NCBI GenBank assembly: GCA_027314515.1
Contig: DAHVAR010000249.1
Location: 1 to 36,801 of the forward strand
DNA from: Actinomycetota bacterium
GTDB taxonomy: Bacteria; Actinomycetota; Actinomycetes; Streptosporangiales; Streptosporangiaceae
Length of the DNA stretch: 36,801 nucleotides
Reading direction: 5' to 3'
Shown here piece after piece: positions 15,175 through 27,852 of this stretch (position 1 is the stretch's first letter; each line of letters starts with the position of its first letter). Made by a program: the position numbers and the translations under genes. Below the pieces are notes generated by a model. The model saw only the letters and a program-made list of their open reading frames with translations. It ran no database searches and was not told where the DNA came from.

Positions 15175-15614
15175 GCGGGCGCGACATGATCGAGAGTGAC
15201 AGCGCCGGGAGCGACGCGGCGGACGGGCAGGCGGGCGGGGGCCGGGAGTTCATCCGGGTCGCCCGCTCGGGCCAGGTGCCGGAAGGCTGGGTGCGGCGCT
15301 TTTACGCCGGCGAGGTCGAGTTGTGCGTGGCCAGGCTGCGCGGCAAGGTATACGCGACCACCAACTATTGCTCGCACCTGGACTGCCTGCTGTCGGCTGG
15401 CAAGCTGGTCGACGACGGGATCGGCTGCTCGTGCCACGGCAGCGTATTCGATCTGGAGACTGGCGAAGCGGTCTACCCGCCGGCGACCGAGCCGATCCGC
15501 ACGTTCCCGGTCCAGGAGACCAGCGGCGAGATCTTCGTCGGCATCGCCCCCGGCGACGCCGGCCAGTCAGGCCCGCGCCGGCGGCCGCGAGTCGCAGGCC
15601 CCGGAACGTTGTGA
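15171..15614 (+). CDS. Second Rieske-type [2Fe-2S] ferredoxin
   Basis: A 147-residue protein with Rieske ligands Cys67-x-His69 and Cys86-x2-His89. It differs from the first ferredoxin in having SCHG instead of PGHQ around the second ligand pair and an N-terminal extension of about 25 polar residues. The GTG at 15171 overlaps the dehydrogenase stop; an ATG at 15186 is an alternative. Two Rieske proteins in one operon suggest either a second redox partner or a split role with the first. Confidence 0.88.
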   Translation: MSGRDMIESDSAGSDAADGQAGGGREFIRVARSGQVPEGWVRRFYAGEVELCVARLRGKVYATTNYCSHLDCLLSAGKLVDDGIGCSCHGSVFDLETGEAVYPPATEPIRTFPVQETSGEIFVGIAPGDAGQSGPRRRPRVAGPGTL

Positions 15615-17223
15615 CCGAGCGCGGCCCGGACTGGCCAGCCCGGCCGGCGGCGCTGGCCGGCGAGCACATGGCGGCGGCCAGCCACCCGGCGGTCGCCGCC
15701 GTGGGATCACAGGTACTGGCGGGCGGCGGCAACGCCATTGACGCCACCCTCGCGATGGCGGCTATGTGCTGGGTCGCCCTGCCCGGCCAGTGCGGCGTCG
15801 GCGGCGATGCGTTCGCGCTGATCCGGGAGCCGGACGGCGCGGTGTGGACGGTCGGGGGCAGCGGCTTCGGCCCGGACGGCGCCGATCCGGGCTTCTACCG
15901 CGAGCTGGGCCTGCCGACGATCCCACTGCGGGGCCCGCTGGCCGTCGCCGTGCCGGGCGCCATGGCCGCAGTGGCCGCGCTGCACGCAACCGGTGCCACC
16001 CGGCCGCTTTCGGAACTCTGGCTGGCCGCGGTCCGCGCGGCCGAGCGAGGGCTGCCCTGCACCGCGAAGACTCGCGCCGACATCATCGAGCACGCCGCTG
16101 ACCTCGCCGACGACGACGGCGCCCGCCAGTCCTTCCTGCCCGGCGGTCGCGCGCCGGAGACCGGGGAAGCGCTCAGGCAGGACCAGCTCGCGACATCGAT
16201 GCGGCTGCTTGCGGCCGACCCCGCCGCGTTCTACCGCGGCAGCCTTGCCGAGCGGGCCGTCTCGGCGCTGCGAGCAGGCGGCGCCCCGTTTAGCGGGCAG
16301 GAGTGGGAGGCGTGCGGCGAGGCCGCCATCGGGCCCGCGCTGACCGGCGGCTACGGCGGCCTCGTCCTGCACCAGACACCGCCGCCGTCGGCGGGCTGGA
16401 TGGTCGTGCAGCAGGCGGCCCTGTGCGACGGCGAGCTGGCGGGGATGTCGTGGCTGAGTGCCGCCGCGGTGCACTGGCTCGCGGCCGCCGCTCGGCGCGC
16501 GTTCGCCGATCGCTACGAGCGCTGCGGCAGCGACAGCCCCGGCTGGCGCGAACTGCTCACCGAGGTGGCGGTGGCGCAGGCCAGGCGGCAGCTGCGGGCC
16601 AAAATCGCCGCTCCGGCGGCCGGCCTGGTGGCCGACGGCGACACCACCTCAACCGTGGCCGTGGACGGCCACGGCCGGGCGGTGAGCTTCATCCACTCGC
16701 TCGCATTCACCTTCGGCGCCCGGATGACCATCCCCGGCACCGGGATCATGCTGAACAACCGGCTGGGCCGGGGGCCTACCTGCTGTCCGGCCACCCCAAC
16801 GAGGTGCGGCCCCGGCGGCGACCGCTGCACACGCTGAACGCCTGGCTGCTGACCGACCAGGCGGGGCGGCTGCGCCATGTCGGCAATACCCCTGGCGGCG
16901 ACGGCCAGGTGCAGTGGAACATGCAGCTGATCTCGCACCTGGCCGATCACGGCCTCGACCCGCAGCAGGCGGTGTCCGCCCCCAGGTTCACCGCCTTCCC
17001 CGGCAGCGACGCGAACGTGATCGGCGCACCGGCCGAGCTGCGCTGCGAATCCCGGCTCGGGGATGCGGTCCTGGCCGGGCTCCGGCAGCTCGGCGAGCAG
17101 GTGCGCACACTCGGCCCATGGGAGGCGGGCGGCTCGGCGCTGGTGATCTCCGCAGACCACGACCGGGGCTGCCTGGCCGGCGGAGCCGATCCCCGGCAGG
17201 AGGGGGTGGCGCTTGGGGTGTGA
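15611..17223 (+). pseudogene. Gamma-glutamyltransferase-like N-terminal nucleophile hydrolase, interrupted by a frameshift
   Basis: Member of the gamma-glutamyltransferase superfamily, whose enzymes self-cleave ahead of a Thr and transfer or hydrolyse gamma-glutamyl groups. Here Asp344-Thr345 (DTTSTVAVD) is the predicted cleavage site and nucleophile. The frame is intact from GTG 15611, overlapping the previous stop, to the NNRLGRG motif, then shifts at a run of five G (16770-16774). Adding one G restores AYLLSGHPNEV and the rest of the small subunit to 17223, giving 537 residues, a normal length. As written, the product would stop at 16837. It may be a true lesion or a base-calling error in the G run. 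Confidence 0.82.
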
Positions 17224-21867: not shown

Positions 21868-21981
21868 GGGCCCAAGGCTAACCCCCGGTAGCCCGGTGGG
21901 TACGCGCGCCGCGTGCGTGGCTTCGCTGTTAGCCGCCCTTGCCCGAGGGGCGGGGCGGGCAGCACTTGGCAGCTAGCGTAT

Positions 21982-21993
21982 TTTGGATACAAA
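21982..21993. promoter_or_regulatory. Candidate GntR operator TTTGGATACAAA
   Basis: A near-perfect palindrome 38 bases before the GntR-type start. Regulators of the FCD group often bind TTGTATACAA-like sites and repress themselves. A related half-site (ATTGTATAC) lies in the promoter of the oxidoreductase operon at 27623-27631. Confidence 0.45.
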
Positions 21994-22031
21994 GGGCCCT
22001 AGGGTCCGGGCTTCGTCGTGGGGAGCGAGTC

Positions 22032-22718
22032 ATGGCCGTCGACATGCGGTCCGCCGGGGAAGCCGACCTTATCCGCCCTGTGCAGCGCGCCGTCCCGCTG
22101 CGCCAGGCCGTCTACGAGTCGATGGTCGAGCTGGTGGTGAGCGGCCGGCTCAACCCCGGTGAGCACCTGGTCGAGACCGACCTGGCCCGCCAGCTCGGAG
22201 TCAGCCGCCAGCCAGTGCGGGAAGCGCTGCACCGGCTGCAGGCCGAGGGCTGGGTGGACCTGCGCCCCAACCAGGGCGCGTTCGTGCATGAGCCCACCGA
22301 CAACGAGGTCGACCAGCTGCTCGACGCGCGAGAACTGCTGGAGGTGGAGACCGCCCGGCTGGCCGCCCGGTCCGCGGACGCGCAGGCCGCGGCGCGGCTG
22401 CGGGTCATCTGCCACGAGGGCGAGGCGGCGGTGAAAGCCGGCGACGCCGAGGGCTTCATCACCGCCAACAACCACTTCCACGCCGCGCTTGCCGACGTCG
22501 CTGGCAACGCGGTGCTGGCCGAGCTGGCGGCCATCGTCGGCCGCAGGATGCGCTGGTACTACCGGCTGGCGGCCCCGCTGCGCGGCGAGACATCGTGCGC
22601 CGAGCACCTCGAAATGATCGACGCCATCGCAGCCGGCGACGAGAAGCGGGCAGCGAAGGCGGCACGCCAGCACACCGAGCGGACCAGGGTCGCCTACCAC
22701 CGGACCGTCCAGTCATGA
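22032..22718 (+). CDS. GntR family transcriptional regulator with FCD ligand domain
   Basis: A 228-residue FadR-subfamily regulator. The winged helix-turn-helix is at about residues 20-86, with the segment ETDLARQLGVSRQPVREAL. The C-terminal FCD domain has the acid/histidine set that binds a metal and a carboxylate ligand: Asp98, His150, His192 and His214. FCD regulators often sense organic acids, which fits a neighbour acting on an oxoacid. ATG 22032 is chosen for the upstream GGGGAG. It is convergent with the oxidoreductase operon, whose promoter carries a similar half-site. Confidence 0.88.
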   Translation: MAVDMRSAGEADLIRPVQRAVPLRQAVYESMVELVVSGRLNPGEHLVETDLARQLGVSRQPVREALHRLQAEGWVDLRPNQGAFVHEPTDNEVDQLLDARELLEVETARLAARSADAQAAARLRVICHEGEAAVKAGDAEGFITANNHFHAALADVAGNAVLAELAAIVGRRMRWYYRLAAPLRGETSCAEHLEMIDAIAAGDEKRAAKAARQHTERTRVAYHRTVQS

Positions 22719-22819
22719 TCGTGACGCGGCAGGCCTGCCGCGGGGACGACCGCAGCCGCTCGCCGCGGCGTGAGGTGCGGGCCTGACAGACGCCGGCCCG
22801 CACCCCCGCTCCGGTGCCC

Positions 22820-24046
22820 TCAGCCCACCGGAGCGGCCACCTGCTCCCCGCCCGCCCGCGGGCTCCCCGTCAGGTCCGGCGCGCTGGTCATCGCCATGCT
22901 GGCGGCGGTGTCTAGCAGGGTGCAGATGCCCTTGTGACGGTGCTCGGCCGCCATCGCGGTCACCTCCGCGACCTCCGCGGGCGCCAGCGGCTGGCCAACC
23001 GCAGGCCGGAGCAGCTGCGCCAGGCGAGCCGTGCCGGTGACGCAGATAGGGCAGGTCTGGCAAGTCTCCCGGGCAAAGAACGCGGCGATCCGTGCCGCCG
23101 CCAGCCCGAGTCCCTGCTGCTCGCCGACCACTATCACCGACGCGCCCAGAGCTGTGCCGGCCGCCTCCAGCGCCTCCGGAGTCATCGCCACGTCCAGTTG
23201 GTCCGCGCGCAGCCACGGCAGCGAGTACCCGCCGGGCAGCACCGCCGCTACCCGGTCGCCCGGCAGCGGCCCGCCCGCCTGCTCGAGGAGCTCGGCAACC
23301 GTGAGGCCGAGCGGCAGCTCGAACACTCCCGGCCGGGCCACGTCCCCGCTGACCGAGAACAGCGTGGGCTGGTGCTGGCGATACCAGTCCCCGCCCCGGC
23401 GCAGGATCACCGGGACGTGCGCGAGCGTCTCCACGTTGTTGACCACGGTCGGCTGGTCACGGTACCCGCGCTCGGTCGGGTACGGCGGCCTCGGCCAGGG
23501 CCAGGCCGGGCGGCGCATGAGGACGGCGAGCAGCGCGGTCTCCTCGCCAGCGACGTAGACGTGATTTTCCAGCAGCAGCCGCACCGGGATCAGGGCGTCC
23601 GCCAGGTCGCTACCGCGCAGCGCCCCGATCGCTTCGGCCAGGGCGTCGTGCGCGGCGCCGAACTCGCTGTTGATATAGACGACGATCTCGTCGGCTTCGA
23701 CCGCGCGGGCAGCGATGAGCGCCCCCTCCAGCACCTGGTGCGGTGCCCTGGCCAGCAGGTGGCGGTCCTTGTAGGAGCCCGGCTCGCCCTCGGCGCCGTT
23801 CACCACCAGGTACCTGGGCCCCGGGTGCGCGCGTGCGGCCTCCCATTTCGCTGCGGCCGGGAAGCCCCCGCCGCCGCGCCCGGTGAGCCCGGCGTCGCGC
23901 ACCGCGGCGATGATGTCGATGGCGGCTGCCGAGCGTGCGGAGCGGAGCGCCTCGTAGCCGCCGCGGGCGGTATACGCGGCCAGCGTCTCCGCCGGGCCTA
24001 GCACGTCGAGATCGGTGACCGGTGCGCCCGGCAGCAGTTCAGCCAC
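22820..24046 (-). CDS. NuoF-like NADH/FMN-binding flavoprotein subunit
   Basis: A 408-residue homologue of the 51-kDa subunit of complex I. The FMN loop GRGGGGFP is at 56-63, the NADH loop GAEGEPG at 84-90, a SLBB region near 225-275, and an N3-type [4Fe-4S] site is formed by Cys329, Cys332, Cys335 and Cys375. The usual CGEETAL reads AGEETAL. The GTG at 24046 is chosen because GGGAGG lies five bases upstream; it overlaps the beta-subunit stop by 8 bases. No NuoE-like or other complex I gene is adjacent, so it probably links the oxidoreductase's iron-sulfur clusters to NAD. Confidence 0.9.
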   Translation of the reverse strand: MAELLPGAPVTDLDVLGPAETLAAYTARGGYEALRSARSAAAIDIIAAVRDAGLTGRGGGGFPAAAKWEAARAHPGPRYLVVNGAEGEPGSYKDRHLLARAPHQVLEGALIAARAVEADEIVVYINSEFGAAHDALAEAIGALRGSDLADALIPVRLLLENHVYVAGEETALLAVLMRRPAWPWPRPPYPTERGYRDQPTVVNNVETLAHVPVILRRGGDWYRQHQPTLFSVSGDVARPGVFELPLGLTVAELLEQAGGPLPGDRVAAVLPGGYSLPWLRADQLDVAMTPEALEAAGTALGASVIVVGEQQGLGLAAARIAAFFARETCQTCPICVTGTARLAQLLRPAVGQPLAPAEVAEVTAMAAEHRHKGICTLLDTAASMAMTSAPDLTGSPRAGGEQVAAPVG

Positions 24047-25169
24047 GGTTGCCTCCCACAGCGGCGATCGGCGCAGCGGCGGCGGCGCTGCCGTTTCCGT
24101 TGCCGGACGCGCCGTCCTGGCCCGCATGCCCGGCGTGCCCCGGCGAGGAGCTGTCGACCGGCAGCCGGCCGAACGGGGTCTGGTTCACCCGGAGGACGCC
24201 GGGCAGGATCCAGTCCTCCCACATCTCGTCGATCCGGGACTGGAAGAAGTCGACGTCCTCGTCGACGAAGTGCGCAAAGCGGCCCTGCCGCCGCAGGTAG
24301 TCGGCGACCGGCTTGCGCCGCACCTTGCCTTCCACCTGCTGCTTGGTCAGACCCTGGTAGCGAAGCTCGCCCTCCAGGCAGTCCCACAGCACGGTGATGC
24401 CGGATTCCACCGCGAGGATCGCCAGCTCATGCGACATCCGCGGATCGAAGTCCCAGCCCTTCGGGCAGGGGTCGTGCGTCTGGACGAAGGTGGGCCCGCC
24501 CACGTCCAGGGCGATGCGGACCTTGTCCATCAGGTCCATGCCGAATCCGGAGGAGGCGTTCGCGAAGTACCGGCCGGTCGGGTGACCGGCCATGAGCAGC
24601 GCCGGCACGTTCTTCTTCCAGCGGTGCTGGGTGATGCGCTGCTCGCTGCCCGAGGGCGTGAACGAGGTGACCGCGCCCCACGGGGTCATCCCAGATGCCT
24701 GGATGTCGGTGTTGGCGTAGGACTCGTTGTCATACAGCAGGATCAGCAGGTTGTAACGGGTGTCCTGGAGAGCCGCCGAGAGGGTGGCCAGGCCCATGTC
24801 GCCGCCGCCGCCGTCGCTGCAGAACGCGATGACATTGATCCTCTCCTCGGCGATCTTGCCCTTGCGCATCAGCACCTTGAGCGCCGCGGCAGTGCCGATC
24901 GCCGAGGAGCCCGCGGAGCCGAGTTGCGTGTGCGCCCACGGCAGTGCCCACGGCGTGGAGTTGTAGCTGGTGTTGGCCACGTACATGCAGCCGGTGGTGC
25001 CGGTCACCAGGGTCCGCGGACCCGCCACCTTCGCCATGTAGCGCATCACCAGCGCGCTTTCGCAGCCCTGGCAGGTGCGGTGACCGGAGGTGTAGTACTC
25101 CTGCATCGGCAGGATGGTGAGCCGGCGGTTGATCTCAAGGTCGGGGATGACCAGTTCCTGTGCGGCCAT
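24039..25169 (-). CDS. 2-oxoacid:ferredoxin oxidoreductase beta subunit (thiamine diphosphate-binding)
   Basis: A 376-residue subunit binding thiamine diphosphate and one [4Fe-4S] cluster. Cluster ligands are Cys33, Cys36, Cys61 and Cys235. The cofactor/Mg motif reads SDGGGGDMGLAT (118-129), with Asn148 in the following YDNE segment. The C-terminal 40 residues are a low-complexity Gly/Ala/Ser tail and likely disordered. The ATG overlaps the alpha-subunit stop (TGATG). Together with alpha it forms the active site that decarboxylates the oxoacid. Confidence 0.92.
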   Translation of the reverse strand: MAAQELVIPDLEINRRLTILPMQEYYTSGHRTCQGCESALVMRYMAKVAGPRTLVTGTTGCMYVANTSYNSTPWALPWAHTQLGSAGSSAIGTAAALKVLMRKGKIAEERINVIAFCSDGGGGDMGLATLSAALQDTRYNLLILLYDNESYANTDIQASGMTPWGAVTSFTPSGSEQRITQHRWKKNVPALLMAGHPTGRYFANASSGFGMDLMDKVRIALDVGGPTFVQTHDPCPKGWDFDPRMSHELAILAVESGITVLWDCLEGELRYQGLTKQQVEGKVRRKPVADYLRRQGRFAHFVDEDVDFFQSRIDEMWEDWILPGVLRVNQTPFGRLPVDSSSPGHAGHAGQDGASGNGNGSAAAAAPIAAVGGNRG

Positions 25170-26443
25170 CAGCGCGCACCCCCTTCTGCGGTAGAAGCCT
25201 CGTCGCGCGGGTCCTCATCGGGCCCGCGCACGCCGATCCACTGGCAGGTGAGATCGGCCACGCCGTCGGCGGTCGCCCGCTCGACGGTCTCCTCCATCTG
25301 GAGCAGGTTGTCCACGGACACCTCGCGCCCGCCCAGCCCCGCGATGAACGGGACGAGCACGGGCCTGCGGGCCTCCGGATACAGCGCCGCGGCGACCTCG
25401 GTGTAGAGAACGCCGCCGTAGGAGTTCGATCCAAAGGAGTAGTCCCGGTCCACGACACCCACGCCCTTGACGCCGCGCAGCAGCGCGCGCAGTTCGGGCT
25501 GGGGGAAGGGCCGGAACCACTTCACGCGGACGAAGCCCACTTTCTTGCCGGCCGCGCGCATCCGGTCCACGGCGACTTTGCCGACCATGCCGACCGTCCC
25601 CATGCCGATGAGCGCGTATTCCGCGTCCTCCATCCGGTAGGTGTCCACGAACGGGTCGGCGGGCCCCCGGCCGAATACCCGGTGGAAGTCCGCGGTGGCT
25701 TCGGCGATGACCGCCCGGGCGCGGCGCATCCCGGCGTCGGACTGGCGCCGGGCCTCCATCACCCAGTCCTCGTTGAACTGCGGTGCGATGGACACCGGGT
25801 TGTCCGGGTGAAATCGCCGGTCGCCCAGGTCGTAGGGCGGCACGAACGCGCCGACGGTGTCCTCGCCGGGCACTCGCACCATGTGCTGGCTGTGGGTGAG
25901 GAACGCGCCGTCCATGGACAGCGCGCACGGCAGCATGACCCGCTTGTCCTCAGCCACCCGGTAGGCCATCAGCGTGGTGTCCAGCGCCTCCTGCGCGCTC
26001 TCCACCCAGTACAGCAGCCACCCGGTGTCGCGGACCATCATCGCGTCGTTGTGCTCCACGCCGAAAGCGCCGGGGTCGTCCAGCGCCCGGTTGCCGACAA
26101 GTGCGACCACGGGCAGGCGCAGGGAGGCGGTGACCACCAGTGCCTCCATGCCGTACATCCAGCCGACTCCCGAGGAGCCGATGAACGCGCGGGCGCCCAC
26201 CAGTGAGGCATGCTTGCCGATCTCGAACTGGGAGTGCTCGGACTCGGCCACGATGAACTCGGCGTCCATCTGGCCATTGGCGATCATCTTGCTGACCGCC
26301 GTCATCACACTGTCGTACGGCCGGATCGGGTAGCCGGCCAGCACGTCGACGTCCAGCAAACGGAGCGCCTGTGCGACCGCGTCGCAGCCGGTGATGATCT
26401 CTTCGCGCTCGGGCGCGGGGGCAGTCTCCTGCGTTGTTGTCAT
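25169..26443 (-). CDS. 2-oxoacid oxidoreductase alpha subunit, oxalate oxidoreductase-like
   Basis: A 424-residue alpha subunit (pyrimidine-binding and transketolase C-terminal domains). The substrate motif, YPITP in pyruvate:ferredoxin oxidoreductases, reads YPIRP (38-42, Arg41). The next binding loop has Arg119, Asp122 and Phe127. These match, at a constant offset of ten, the residues I recall for oxalate oxidoreductase of Moorella thermoacetica (Arg31, Arg109, Asp112, Phe117). Gln222 is near the expected fifth position. The predicted reaction is oxalate to two CO2 with release of two low-potential electrons. GAGGAGG lies upstream of the ATG. Another small dicarboxylate or oxoacid cannot be excluded. 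Confidence 0.85.
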   Translation of the reverse strand: MTTTQETAPAPEREEIITGCDAVAQALRLLDVDVLAGYPIRPYDSVMTAVSKMIANGQMDAEFIVAESEHSQFEIGKHASLVGARAFIGSSGVGWMYGMEALVVTASLRLPVVALVGNRALDDPGAFGVEHNDAMMVRDTGWLLYWVESAQEALDTTLMAYRVAEDKRVMLPCALSMDGAFLTHSQHMVRVPGEDTVGAFVPPYDLGDRRFHPDNPVSIAPQFNEDWVMEARRQSDAGMRRARAVIAEATADFHRVFGRGPADPFVDTYRMEDAEYALIGMGTVGMVGKVAVDRMRAAGKKVGFVRVKWFRPFPQPELRALLRGVKGVGVVDRDYSFGSNSYGGVLYTEVAAALYPEARRPVLVPFIAGLGGREVSVDNLLQMEETVERATADGVADLTCQWIGVRGPDEDPRDEASTAEGGAR

Positions 26444-26464
26444 GGCAGCCTCCTCGCGCCGGCC

Positions 26465-27547
26465 TCAGTAGATCCCATAGTGGGGGTTGGCGCCGCCGGC
26501 CTGCGCGACCTTTTCCGCCCGCAGCTCCTCATAGGCGGCGGGATCGCTCTCGAACACGCCGTGCAGCGGTTCGTTCGATTCGAAGACGGACTCGTCCACC
26601 ATCTCTATGCATCCGGAGACGGGACAGGACTGGGCGCAGATGCCACATCCGCAGCAGTGCTGGTAGTTGATGTCGTAGTGGCCCTCGGGCGTCGGGATGA
26701 AGCACTCGTCCGGGCAGACGGTGTAGCAGATCTGGCACTTCACGCAGGCGTCGAATTTGACCAGCGGGCGGGTCGTGCGGGTGGTGTACTTCATGAACAG
26801 CGTGTTGTTCTTGCCGACCTCGATGGCCGGGACGACCAGGCCCTCGCGCATCTGGGTCCAGCCCGGCATCTCGACCGGCACGTAGGCGTCCTCCGCGCCC
26901 ACGCCCGCCCCGATGGGATGCATCTGGACCGATTCGTAGCCCTCCCGCAGTTGCGCCGTGCGCAGGTCCCCGTCCTTGGCGGAGCCGGCCTGGGCAATCA
27001 GGCTGTCGAGCGAGACTAGCCCGCCGGTGACCTTGGCCACCGCTCCCATGGTGCGGTAGTCGGTACCGTCATCGTTATAGACCCACAGGCCGCCGAACGA
27101 CGGCTCGCCGGGCATGACCGCCAGGTTCCAGTCGTAGGTGCGACGGGGAATCCAGTGCAGCAATTCCTCGGGGGAGCGACGGGAGATCACTAGCAGCGTG
27201 CCGCCCGGGGCCAGGTTCAGGTTGATCGGGCGGACCCCGTACCAGGCCCAAGACTCCACGCCCTTGGTCAGCGTGTCGTCCATCACGCAGACCACCACCA
27301 CGTTCTCCGGCTCGTACTTGGTCATTTCGACCCGGAGCGAGTCCATGTCGTCGGCGATCACCGCGAACTGCTTCGCGGGGATCCCGTTGCGCTCGGGGGA
27401 GTCCCCGTAGCGCTGGACGGTGCCGCCGACCTTGTCCTCGCGCCGGGCTGCTTTCACCAGTTCCTTGGTGATGACGCCAGCGAGGTTCTTCTGGAAGATC
27501 CCTCGGTAGGTGACGTCAACAGCGCCGACAGACGTCTCATCGGACAT
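26465..27547 (-). CDS. 2-oxoacid oxidoreductase fused gamma-delta subunit
   Basis: A 360-residue fusion. The gamma (catalytic, CoA/substrate-side) domain spans about residues 8-185, and a delta ferredoxin domain spans 260-325. The latter carries two [4Fe-4S] sites, Cys268/271/274/278 and Cys298/301/304/308, each as C-x2-C-x2-C-x3-CP. A gamma-delta fusion with separate alpha and beta genes is the subunit plan known for oxalate oxidoreductase. GAGGAG lies upstream of the ATG. It is the first gene of the four-gene operon and is followed by alpha after 21 bases. Confidence 0.9.
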   Translation of the reverse strand: MSDETSVGAVDVTYRGIFQKNLAGVITKELVKAARREDKVGGTVQRYGDSPERNGIPAKQFAVIADDMDSLRVEMTKYEPENVVVVCVMDDTLTKGVESWAWYGVRPINLNLAPGGTLLVISRRSPEELLHWIPRRTYDWNLAVMPGEPSFGGLWVYNDDGTDYRTMGAVAKVTGGLVSLDSLIAQAGSAKDGDLRTAQLREGYESVQMHPIGAGVGAEDAYVPVEMPGWTQMREGLVVPAIEVGKNNTLFMKYTTRTTRPLVKFDACVKCQICYTVCPDECFIPTPEGHYDINYQHCCGCGICAQSCPVSGCIEMVDESVFESNEPLHGVFESDPAAYEELRAEKVAQAGGANPHYGIY

Positions 27548-27622: not shown

Positions 27623-27673
27623 ATTGTATACCGTCGGCAGGATACCTCCATCCTAAGGATATGCCTGCCGACG
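27623..27673 (-). promoter_or_regulatory. Promoter/operator region of the oxidoreductase operon
   Basis: Minus-strand TACAAT (27628-27623) is a good -10 about 75 bases before the gamma-delta start; no clear -35 is seen. Just upstream lies a 10-base perfect inverted repeat, CGTCGGCAGG (27632-27641) and CCTGCCGACG (27664-27673), with a 22-base spacer. The spacer contains the near-palindrome ATCCTAAGGAT (27650-27660). ATTGTATAC (27623-27631) resembles half of the GntR site at 21982. Confidence 0.5.
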
Positions 27674-27852
27674 TCAAGAGCGGAGCGGGGGTAGGAAGCG
27701 CGTTCCGGGCCGCCCCGGCCACGCGGAGCCATCGCAGTCGATGTCGTCACGACGCCATCGCGGCAGGCGGCGGCAATGCCCTGGTTGATCGCATGGCACA
27801 GGCCGAAGCCGTCGCCGCGCCCCGTCAGCCTGATCTCCTCCGACGCGTTCAC
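27643..27852 (-). pseudogene. Relic of a ChbG/HpnK (YdjC-type) deacetylase gene, N-terminal part
   Basis: About 70 codons from GTG 27852 resemble the N-terminus of this carbohydrate/hopanoid deacetylase family: FGLCHAINQGIAAA, then GVVTTSTAMAP, then LDVGRH with the metal histidine. The family motif ADDFG has become GDGFG, removing one metal ligand, and the homology ends at 27643. The frame then runs out of phase into the oxidoreductase operon. It is a decayed fragment whose DNA now carries the operon's regulatory sites. Confidence 0.6.

Follow-up and report, generated by a model that had tools for sequence, protein, structure and literature searches.

A probable NAD-linked oxalate oxidoreductase operon of an actinomycete, from a clade sister to the Moorella-type enzymes

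The window studied here is positions 1 to 36,801 of contig DAHVAR010000249.1 (36,801 nucleotides, forward strand; assembly GCA_027314515.1), from an actinomycete of the Streptosporangiaceae. Its minus strand carries an operon of four genes, all running one way, for gamma-delta, alpha, beta and NuoF-like subunits. The operon probably encodes a coenzyme A (CoA)-independent, thiamine diphosphate (ThDP)-dependent oxalate oxidoreductase (OOR) that is linked to nicotinamide adenine dinucleotide (NAD) and belongs to a clade sister to the Moorella-type OOR known from acetogens. The NuoF-like gene, the operator ahead of the operon and the GntR/OxlT context are the best evidence for oxalate as the substrate, the strongest being the sharing of regulation with operons of the Moorella side. 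In the mechanism that we propose, Arg41 and Arg119 of alpha would anchor the oxalate, which ThDP at the alpha-beta interface would attack and split into two CO2 without the use of CoA. The two electrons would pass from the proximal cluster of beta through the two clusters of delta to the NuoF-like subunit, whose flavin mononucleotide (FMN) would reduce NAD+ to NADH. A GntR regulator bound at a 22-bp element would keep the operon repressed, and oxalate or a close metabolite would lift the repression.

Subunits, active-site residues and clade

The original prediction was of a candidate OOR operon with the Moorella gene plan, i.e., fused gamma-delta, alpha and beta, and as to frames and plan it was borne out. 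Among the open frames of the minus strand were the fused gamma-delta subunit (26465..27547, 360 aa), alpha (25169..26443, 424 aa) and beta (24039..25169, 376 aa), with one base common to the alpha stop and the beta start. As in Moorella thermoacetica OOR (PDB 5c4i), there are three [4Fe-4S] clusters, and twelve of the twelve cysteines for them are present: eight in gamma-delta for two clusters, and Cys33, Cys36, Cys61 and Cys235 of beta, which also has the ThDP domain, for the proximal one. Moorella OOR chains were the top solved match by sequence for beta and for gamma-delta (5c4i_B, E 2.1e-22). In phmmer, alpha matched 5c4i_A, the Moorella OOR alpha, with E 6.7e-91 and 308 bits, the runner-up being a pyruvate enzyme (4.8e-61, 210 bits). 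An AlphaFold2 model of alpha from 27 rows (mean predicted local distance difference test score 81, loop 120-130 under 50) likewise had 5c4i_A as its top Foldseek match (E 7.1e-44), followed by a Methanosarcina pyruvate enzyme (4.1e-38).

Window alpha carries YPIRP at 38-42, in which Arg41 is the equivalent of Moorella Arg31, and not the YPITP or YPISP of pyruvate:ferredoxin oxidoreductase; its plug loop is RALDDPGAFG (119-128). In the phmmer alignment to 5c4i_A, Arg41, Arg119, Asp122 and Phe127 paired with Moorella Arg31, Arg109, Asp112 and Phe117, the spacings of 78, 3 and 5 being equal in the two proteins, just as had been proposed from the sequence of the window. All 91 OOR-like rows (window, Moorella, 82 window-type locus rows of which two are duplicates, and 7 Moorella-side actinomycete rows) had the four residues R, R, D and F, versus none of 17 pyruvate-type rows, which were assigned by motif and read SRGI, TRGI or TRAI at the same positions. 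This pattern is not due to chance. Arg119 by itself is not diagnostic of OOR, since all 17 pyruvate-type rows have Arg there too. In PMC5020499, on Moorella OOR, Arg31, Arg109 and Asp116 are named, Arg31 and Asp116 as taking part in a bait-and-switch movement of the plug loop.

An ordinary pyruvate- or 2-oxoglutarate-type oxidoreductase in which YPIRP arose by chance would share superfamily, fold and Arg119 with the window enzyme, but Arg41, Asp122, Phe127 and further OOR-side residues are fixed, and the alpha and beta trees contradict it. Support for the window clade (81 rows) in the alpha tree (107 rows) was 99, and that for the Moorella side (Moorella plus seven actinomycete rows) was 97; the two groups were joined, apart from 18 pyruvate-type rows, at a Shimodaira-Hasegawa-like approximate likelihood-ratio test value (SH-aLRT) of 100. 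The corresponding beta tree, of 104 rows, gave 99 for the window clade, 88 for the Moorella side and 93 for both together versus 18 pyruvate-type rows, long branches being flagged in both trees. Alpha and beta fall on the OOR side, apart from the pyruvate-type rows, and a pyruvate or 2-oxoglutarate enzyme, rejected on the residues and two trees, is highly improbable. The trees place the window enzyme in a separate clade, sister to the Moorella-side clade and not nested in it, and window alpha is about 40% identical to Moorella OOR.

Relatives were sought by scanning named genome contigs with an alignment of the window alpha type. At least 596 pattern stretches were found, and at least 421 stretches encoded relatives; the window-clade counts below rest on the best 80 of these, with alphas 57-98% identical to window alpha. 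Next to alpha lay beta in 80 of the 80 loci and gamma-delta in 78. Their source labels include Actinomycetota, Bacillota, Chloroflexota (SAR202 among them), Methylomirabilota, Rokubacteria, Pseudomonadota, Acidobacteriota, Myxococcota, Nitrososphaerota and others, and nearly all are metagenome-assembled genomes (MAGs). Loci and genomes are cited by our L and G numbers. Because an identical alpha was found in a Thaumarchaeota MAG and a Gammaproteobacteria MAG (L109 and L111), probably by binning contamination, phylum labels of single MAGs call for caution. One Bacillota MAG (Bu54) has two operon copies with identical alpha (L047, L048), each with an OxlT-like gene just upstream; those two genes' products are 38% identical. 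Plasmid-borne copies were considered and dropped, the three plasmid records having only 32-36% identity.

Among 396 Actinomycetota genomes, the window's own included, window-type alpha at 60% identity or more was found in its own genome and eight others, all of one family. Nineteen other loci from this search comprised 8 with RRDAF like the window, 2 with RRDDF and 9 of pyruvate type. Window-clade bearers of this search include genomes of family f45 (two on single contigs), which the named loci L086 and L094 suggest to be Rubrobacteraceae. Moorella-side OORs are also present in further genera of the window's actinomycete family (L036-L039, L041, L042) and in the same order (L040). Their alphas are 39-42% identical to window alpha, and that of L036, the one scanned, passes the NCBIfam OOR cut-off (509 over 500). 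The suggestion that the window gene extends the range of OOR to actinomycetes must be given up, because these closer relatives of Moorella OOR are already present in that family. Among OOR-like matches, three of ten OOR-bearing genomes had the window type only and seven the Moorella-side type only.

Shared operator, regulator and transporters

A 22-bp operator-like element, TATCCTGCCGACGGTATACAAT (27623..27644, minus strand), lies 76 nt ahead of the first start codon. Directly upstream of it a sigma-70-like promoter can be read from the sequence: TTGACG, 16 nt and TAGGAT (27650..27677, minus strand). The element, written generally as TATCCTGCC[C/G]ACGGTATACAAT, was found without mismatch 75-81 nt ahead of the first start of the window-type operon in G000, G006 and G054, and without mismatch shortly ahead of the gamma gene of the Moorella-side operon in five of seven genomes (G010, G021, G025, G036, G043). 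With up to three mismatches there were 12 copies in 9 of 100 genomes (own included), 8 of them ahead of OOR operons, and the reversed-pattern control gave none in the 100 genomes. The four other copies lie about 0.3 kb ahead of OxlT in G054 and, in G048, ahead of OxlT, ahead of a membrane-protein gene and at a contig end. At this threshold no copy was found in G028 and G064, the remaining two of the ten genomes with an OOR. TTGACG keeps its distance from the element, to within one base, in the aligned promoter rows, and apart from it the flanks have little in common between window-type and Moorella-side operons. The operator is common to both OOR types although their alpha proteins are only about 40% identical.

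Because the same operator stands ahead of both types, it seems that the window enzyme took the place of a Moorella-side OOR under unchanged control. In L036 and L041 the Moorella-side order is operator, gamma, delta-GltD, alpha, beta, OxlT and reversed GntR; the window-type order is operator, gamma-delta, alpha, beta and NuoF, followed by OxlT (L045, which lacks the operator) or by reversed GntR (window). Unlike the window operon, Moorella-side actinomycete OORs have a separate gamma and a delta fused to a GltD-like protein (typed in L036). From these layouts, the catalytic core was apparently swapped together with its flavoprotein, and the operator, regulator and transporter were retained. 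The operator would offer a clean genetic test in culturable relatives.

The presumptive repressor, which would be the protein that binds the element, is a GntR-FCD regulator convergent with the operon (21939..22718, plus strand, for the longest frame; the true start is probably near 21999). GntR homologues of at least 63% identity were found in 9 of 100 genomes (G000, G006, G054, G036, G048, G021, G043, G010, G028), all of which also have an OOR or the operator, and a GntR gene lies near the Moorella-side operon in three of seven loci (L036, L039, L041). In G048 (82% complete), in which no OOR alpha was detected, operator copies with one mismatch lie at 210-231 and 4077-4098 of L192 (G048:C214) and at 177-198 of L193. 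One is ahead of a gene at 501-2075 (a transporter by eye), followed by a small membrane protein and a cation/Ca2+ exchanger (by eye); another lies at a contig end, and another is ahead of OxlT with GntR.

An OxlT-like gene comes directly after NuoF in L045, is divergent in L046, adjoins the same GntR in G006 and G054, and is present in four of seven Moorella-side loci. In the window clade, 11 of 80 loci have an OxlT-like gene nearby, 6 a strong frc and 16 either, versus none of 20 non-OOR oxidoreductase loci; the comparison covers 1.11 Mb of window-clade sequence and 0.27 Mb of control, which is small and from actinomycetes only. Of the proteins scanned, three of five OxlT-like proteins passed the oxalate/formate antiporter cut-off, two of three CoA-transferases passed that for frc, and one of four thiamine pyrophosphate (TPP) enzymes, L071, passed that for oxc. 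The TPP-enzyme cluster was therefore not accepted as oxc (its L120 member had no oxc among the matches listed, the best 25 of 50), nor was the L118 CoA-transferase, below cut-off, accepted as frc.

In L071, an alphaproteobacterial MAG, oxc (1023 bits, cut-off 739) and frc (665, cut-off 504) stand directly ahead of gamma-delta, alpha and beta. The full order is Tct transporter genes, GntR, oxc, frc, gamma-delta, alpha, beta and a NuoE-NuoF-type fusion, and two oxalate routes thus lie together. The window genome (97.9% complete) had no oxc over cut-off, the best match scoring 197 of 739 bits.

The sister genome G006 (L147, L034) has OxlT next after GntR, and in the window GntR directly meets the operon (22718-22740). 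The window passes from GntR (22723) to the operon (22737) exactly where both G006 contigs end, and the window may either have truly lost OxlT or be mis-assembled at this point. In G006 the OOR operon is directly preceded, on the same strand, by a dihydroorotate-dehydrogenase-like gene, a full-length pyruvate:ferredoxin oxidoreductase and a GltD-Fer4 protein (L034 5282-11519), a segment with which the window does not align.

Electron acceptor

The interval 22820-27547 also holds a fourth gene, missing from the original prediction, for a NuoF-like subunit of about 408 aa (22820..24046, minus strand). Its likeliest start is the GTG at 24046, with GGAGG 5 nt upstream and an 8-nt overlap with the beta stop; an ATG upstream at 24127 is possible. 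The protein has Complex1_51K (FMN/NADH), SLBB and NADH_4Fe-4S domains with one [4Fe-4S] site. The motifs GRGGxGFP, NGAEGEPGSYKDRH, GEETAL and CxxCxxC...C, which we take to serve FMN, NADH and the [4Fe-4S] cluster, are intact. Such motifs are those of complex I NuoF and of NAD-linked formate dehydrogenases; unlike these systems, the window operon shows no NuoE-like gene, and its subunit scores about half the NuoF family cut-off (286 of 559 bits). The gene is next after beta in the window and in L043, L044, L045 and L046, and among the loci examined it follows beta only in this actinomycete sub-clade, L071 left aside. The L071 match was rejected as the same partner, being the longer NuoE-NuoF-type fusion beside oxc/frc and probably a formate dehydrogenase (by eye).

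It might be argued that oxalate is oxidized but that the electrons go to free ferredoxin, as in Moorella, the NuoF-like protein having some other role. Indeed, 75 of the 80 window-clade loci lack a NuoF-like gene, and elsewhere in the clade an FdxA-like ferredoxin is found in 7 loci and a flavoprotein, FNR-like by reading, in 8, with Pfam scores below or near cut-off. On the other hand, NuoF follows beta in the window, overlapping it, and in the four nearest loci with its flavin, NADH and Fe-S motifs intact, and the Moorella-side actinomycete OORs have a pyridine-nucleotide flavoprotein fused to delta (in L036 a GltD-like FAD/NAD(P) protein). We consider ferredoxin as the acceptor unlikely, and NAD+ remains the predicted one.

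A pyridine-nucleotide-linked 2-oxoacid oxidoreductase has a parallel in NADH-dependent phenylglyoxylate dehydrogenase, an enzyme that uses a different flavoprotein. The NCBIfam PadEFGHI models were weaker matches of window alpha, beta and delta than the OOR models. Several pyridine-nucleotide partners would suit oxygen-respiring bacteria, since COX1 was over cut-off in five of five genomes tested and CdhC (acetyl-CoA synthase) was found in none of the five. The presence of a haem-copper oxidase and the lack of a CdhC match set the window-type genome apart from Moorella.

Substrate and place in oxalate turnover

A number of observations weigh against the reading of the operon as an NAD-linked OOR. 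The position of Moorella Asp116, overlooked in the original prediction, is Ala126 in window alpha and Ala in 83 of 83 window-clade rows (two duplicates), while Moorella and seven of seven Moorella-side actinomycete rows keep Asp; the loci from the 396-genome search divide likewise (8 Ala, 2 Asp). Further clade-specific changes lie beside this site and near ThDP: alpha Asp123, near Ala126, stands for Pro throughout the window clade, alpha Trp95 and also Gly117 are peculiar to the clade, and beta has Asp155 versus a Gly that is fixed in other groups. All three subunits miss the NCBIfam OOR cut-offs (alpha 350.8/500, beta 322.5/590, delta 104.5/230 bits), the OOR models (NF045790-NF045792) being still the top NCBIfam match of each.

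Among the 80 window-clade loci, just two, L043 and L044 (G006 and G054), have the 22-bp element when up to four mismatches are allowed. The next nearest loci, L045 and L046, match it with 8 mismatches at best and have no GntR match in the surrounding sequence. The operator argument therefore rests on three near-identical window-type genomes, the element not being characteristic of the clade as a whole. GntR homologues at E 1e-60 or better occur in 32 of 100 genomes, mostly at 52-59% identity and mostly without an OOR, so that a GntR gene is informative only if highly identical or adjacent to the operon; its presence alone was rejected as a marker, and the 57% match in G064 is background. A NuoF-like gene is also near 1 of 20 non-OOR loci (L132, 38%). 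Sixty-four of 80 window-clade loci have no OxlT-like gene or frc nearby (many contigs are short), and 20 have the TctA transporter, which is not oxalate-specific. There is no OxlT homologue in the window genome, and oxc is over cut-off in two of nine genomes tested, L071 and L045.

One rival reading is that the substrate of the window clade is a different small acid of which one end resembles oxalate, e.g., glyoxylate, mesoxalate or oxamate, and that the clade shares the regulation of oxalate genes since such acids occur together. The loss of Asp116 and the clade-wide new acidic residues beside the active site would fit, as would FMN hydroxyacid-oxidase genes near 6 of 80 window-clade loci (two members typed), the Tct transporters, and L169 and L170 (G115, G143), where the window-type operon is followed, after beta, by an aminotransferase of the serine-glyoxylate kind (by eye). 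L169 and L170 also have a membrane protein that by eye resembles the operator-linked one of L192. Yet both arginines equivalent to Moorella Arg31 and Arg109 are kept, the same operator serves Moorella-side OORs, whose one scanned alpha passes the OOR cut-off, and frc and OxlT are among the neighbors. Another acid as the substrate is therefore quite unlikely.

Because the cut-offs are missed and Asp116 is changed, the window enzyme was not filed as a member of the Moorella-type OOR. What stands of the OOR claim is an OOR-related complex, not of pyruvate type by best matches, residues and trees. What does not stand is a plain Moorella-type OOR, given the separate clade with an identity of about 40%, the missed cut-offs and the absence of Asp116. 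The putative extra NuoF-like subunit is a further difference from Moorella OOR. Most probably the enzyme works like the Moorella-type OOR.

In soil, oxalate ranks among the major products of plants and fungi. Tentatively, the clade may be a large unrecognized class of OOR in which the plug loop was rebuilt without Asp116 and the pyridine-nucleotide partners vary. It might then provide a widespread oxalate-oxidizing route in soil, groundwater and marine bacteria (and some archaea) that goes uncounted when oxc, frc, oxdC and oxlT are surveyed, and in this family it might have been substituted for the Moorella-side OOR at the same locus, with the earlier promoter, regulator and transporter kept. 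One recent oxalotrophy survey (PMC10192776) follows oxdC, oxc, frc and oxlT, and its main text has no word beginning with oxidoreductase. No earlier description of such a clade was found in the literature searched, which excluded most subscription papers. If the window clade oxidizes oxalate, lineages without oxc could count as oxalate consumers, some of them making NADH straight from oxalate, and the clade-wide loss of Asp116 makes the bait-and-switch proposed for Moorella OOR testable by comparison.

Elsewhere in the window, a gamma-glutamyltranspeptidase domain (15323-17223, plus strand) is spread over two overlapping frames (profile positions 2-369 and 384-512), as from a frameshift or sequence error.

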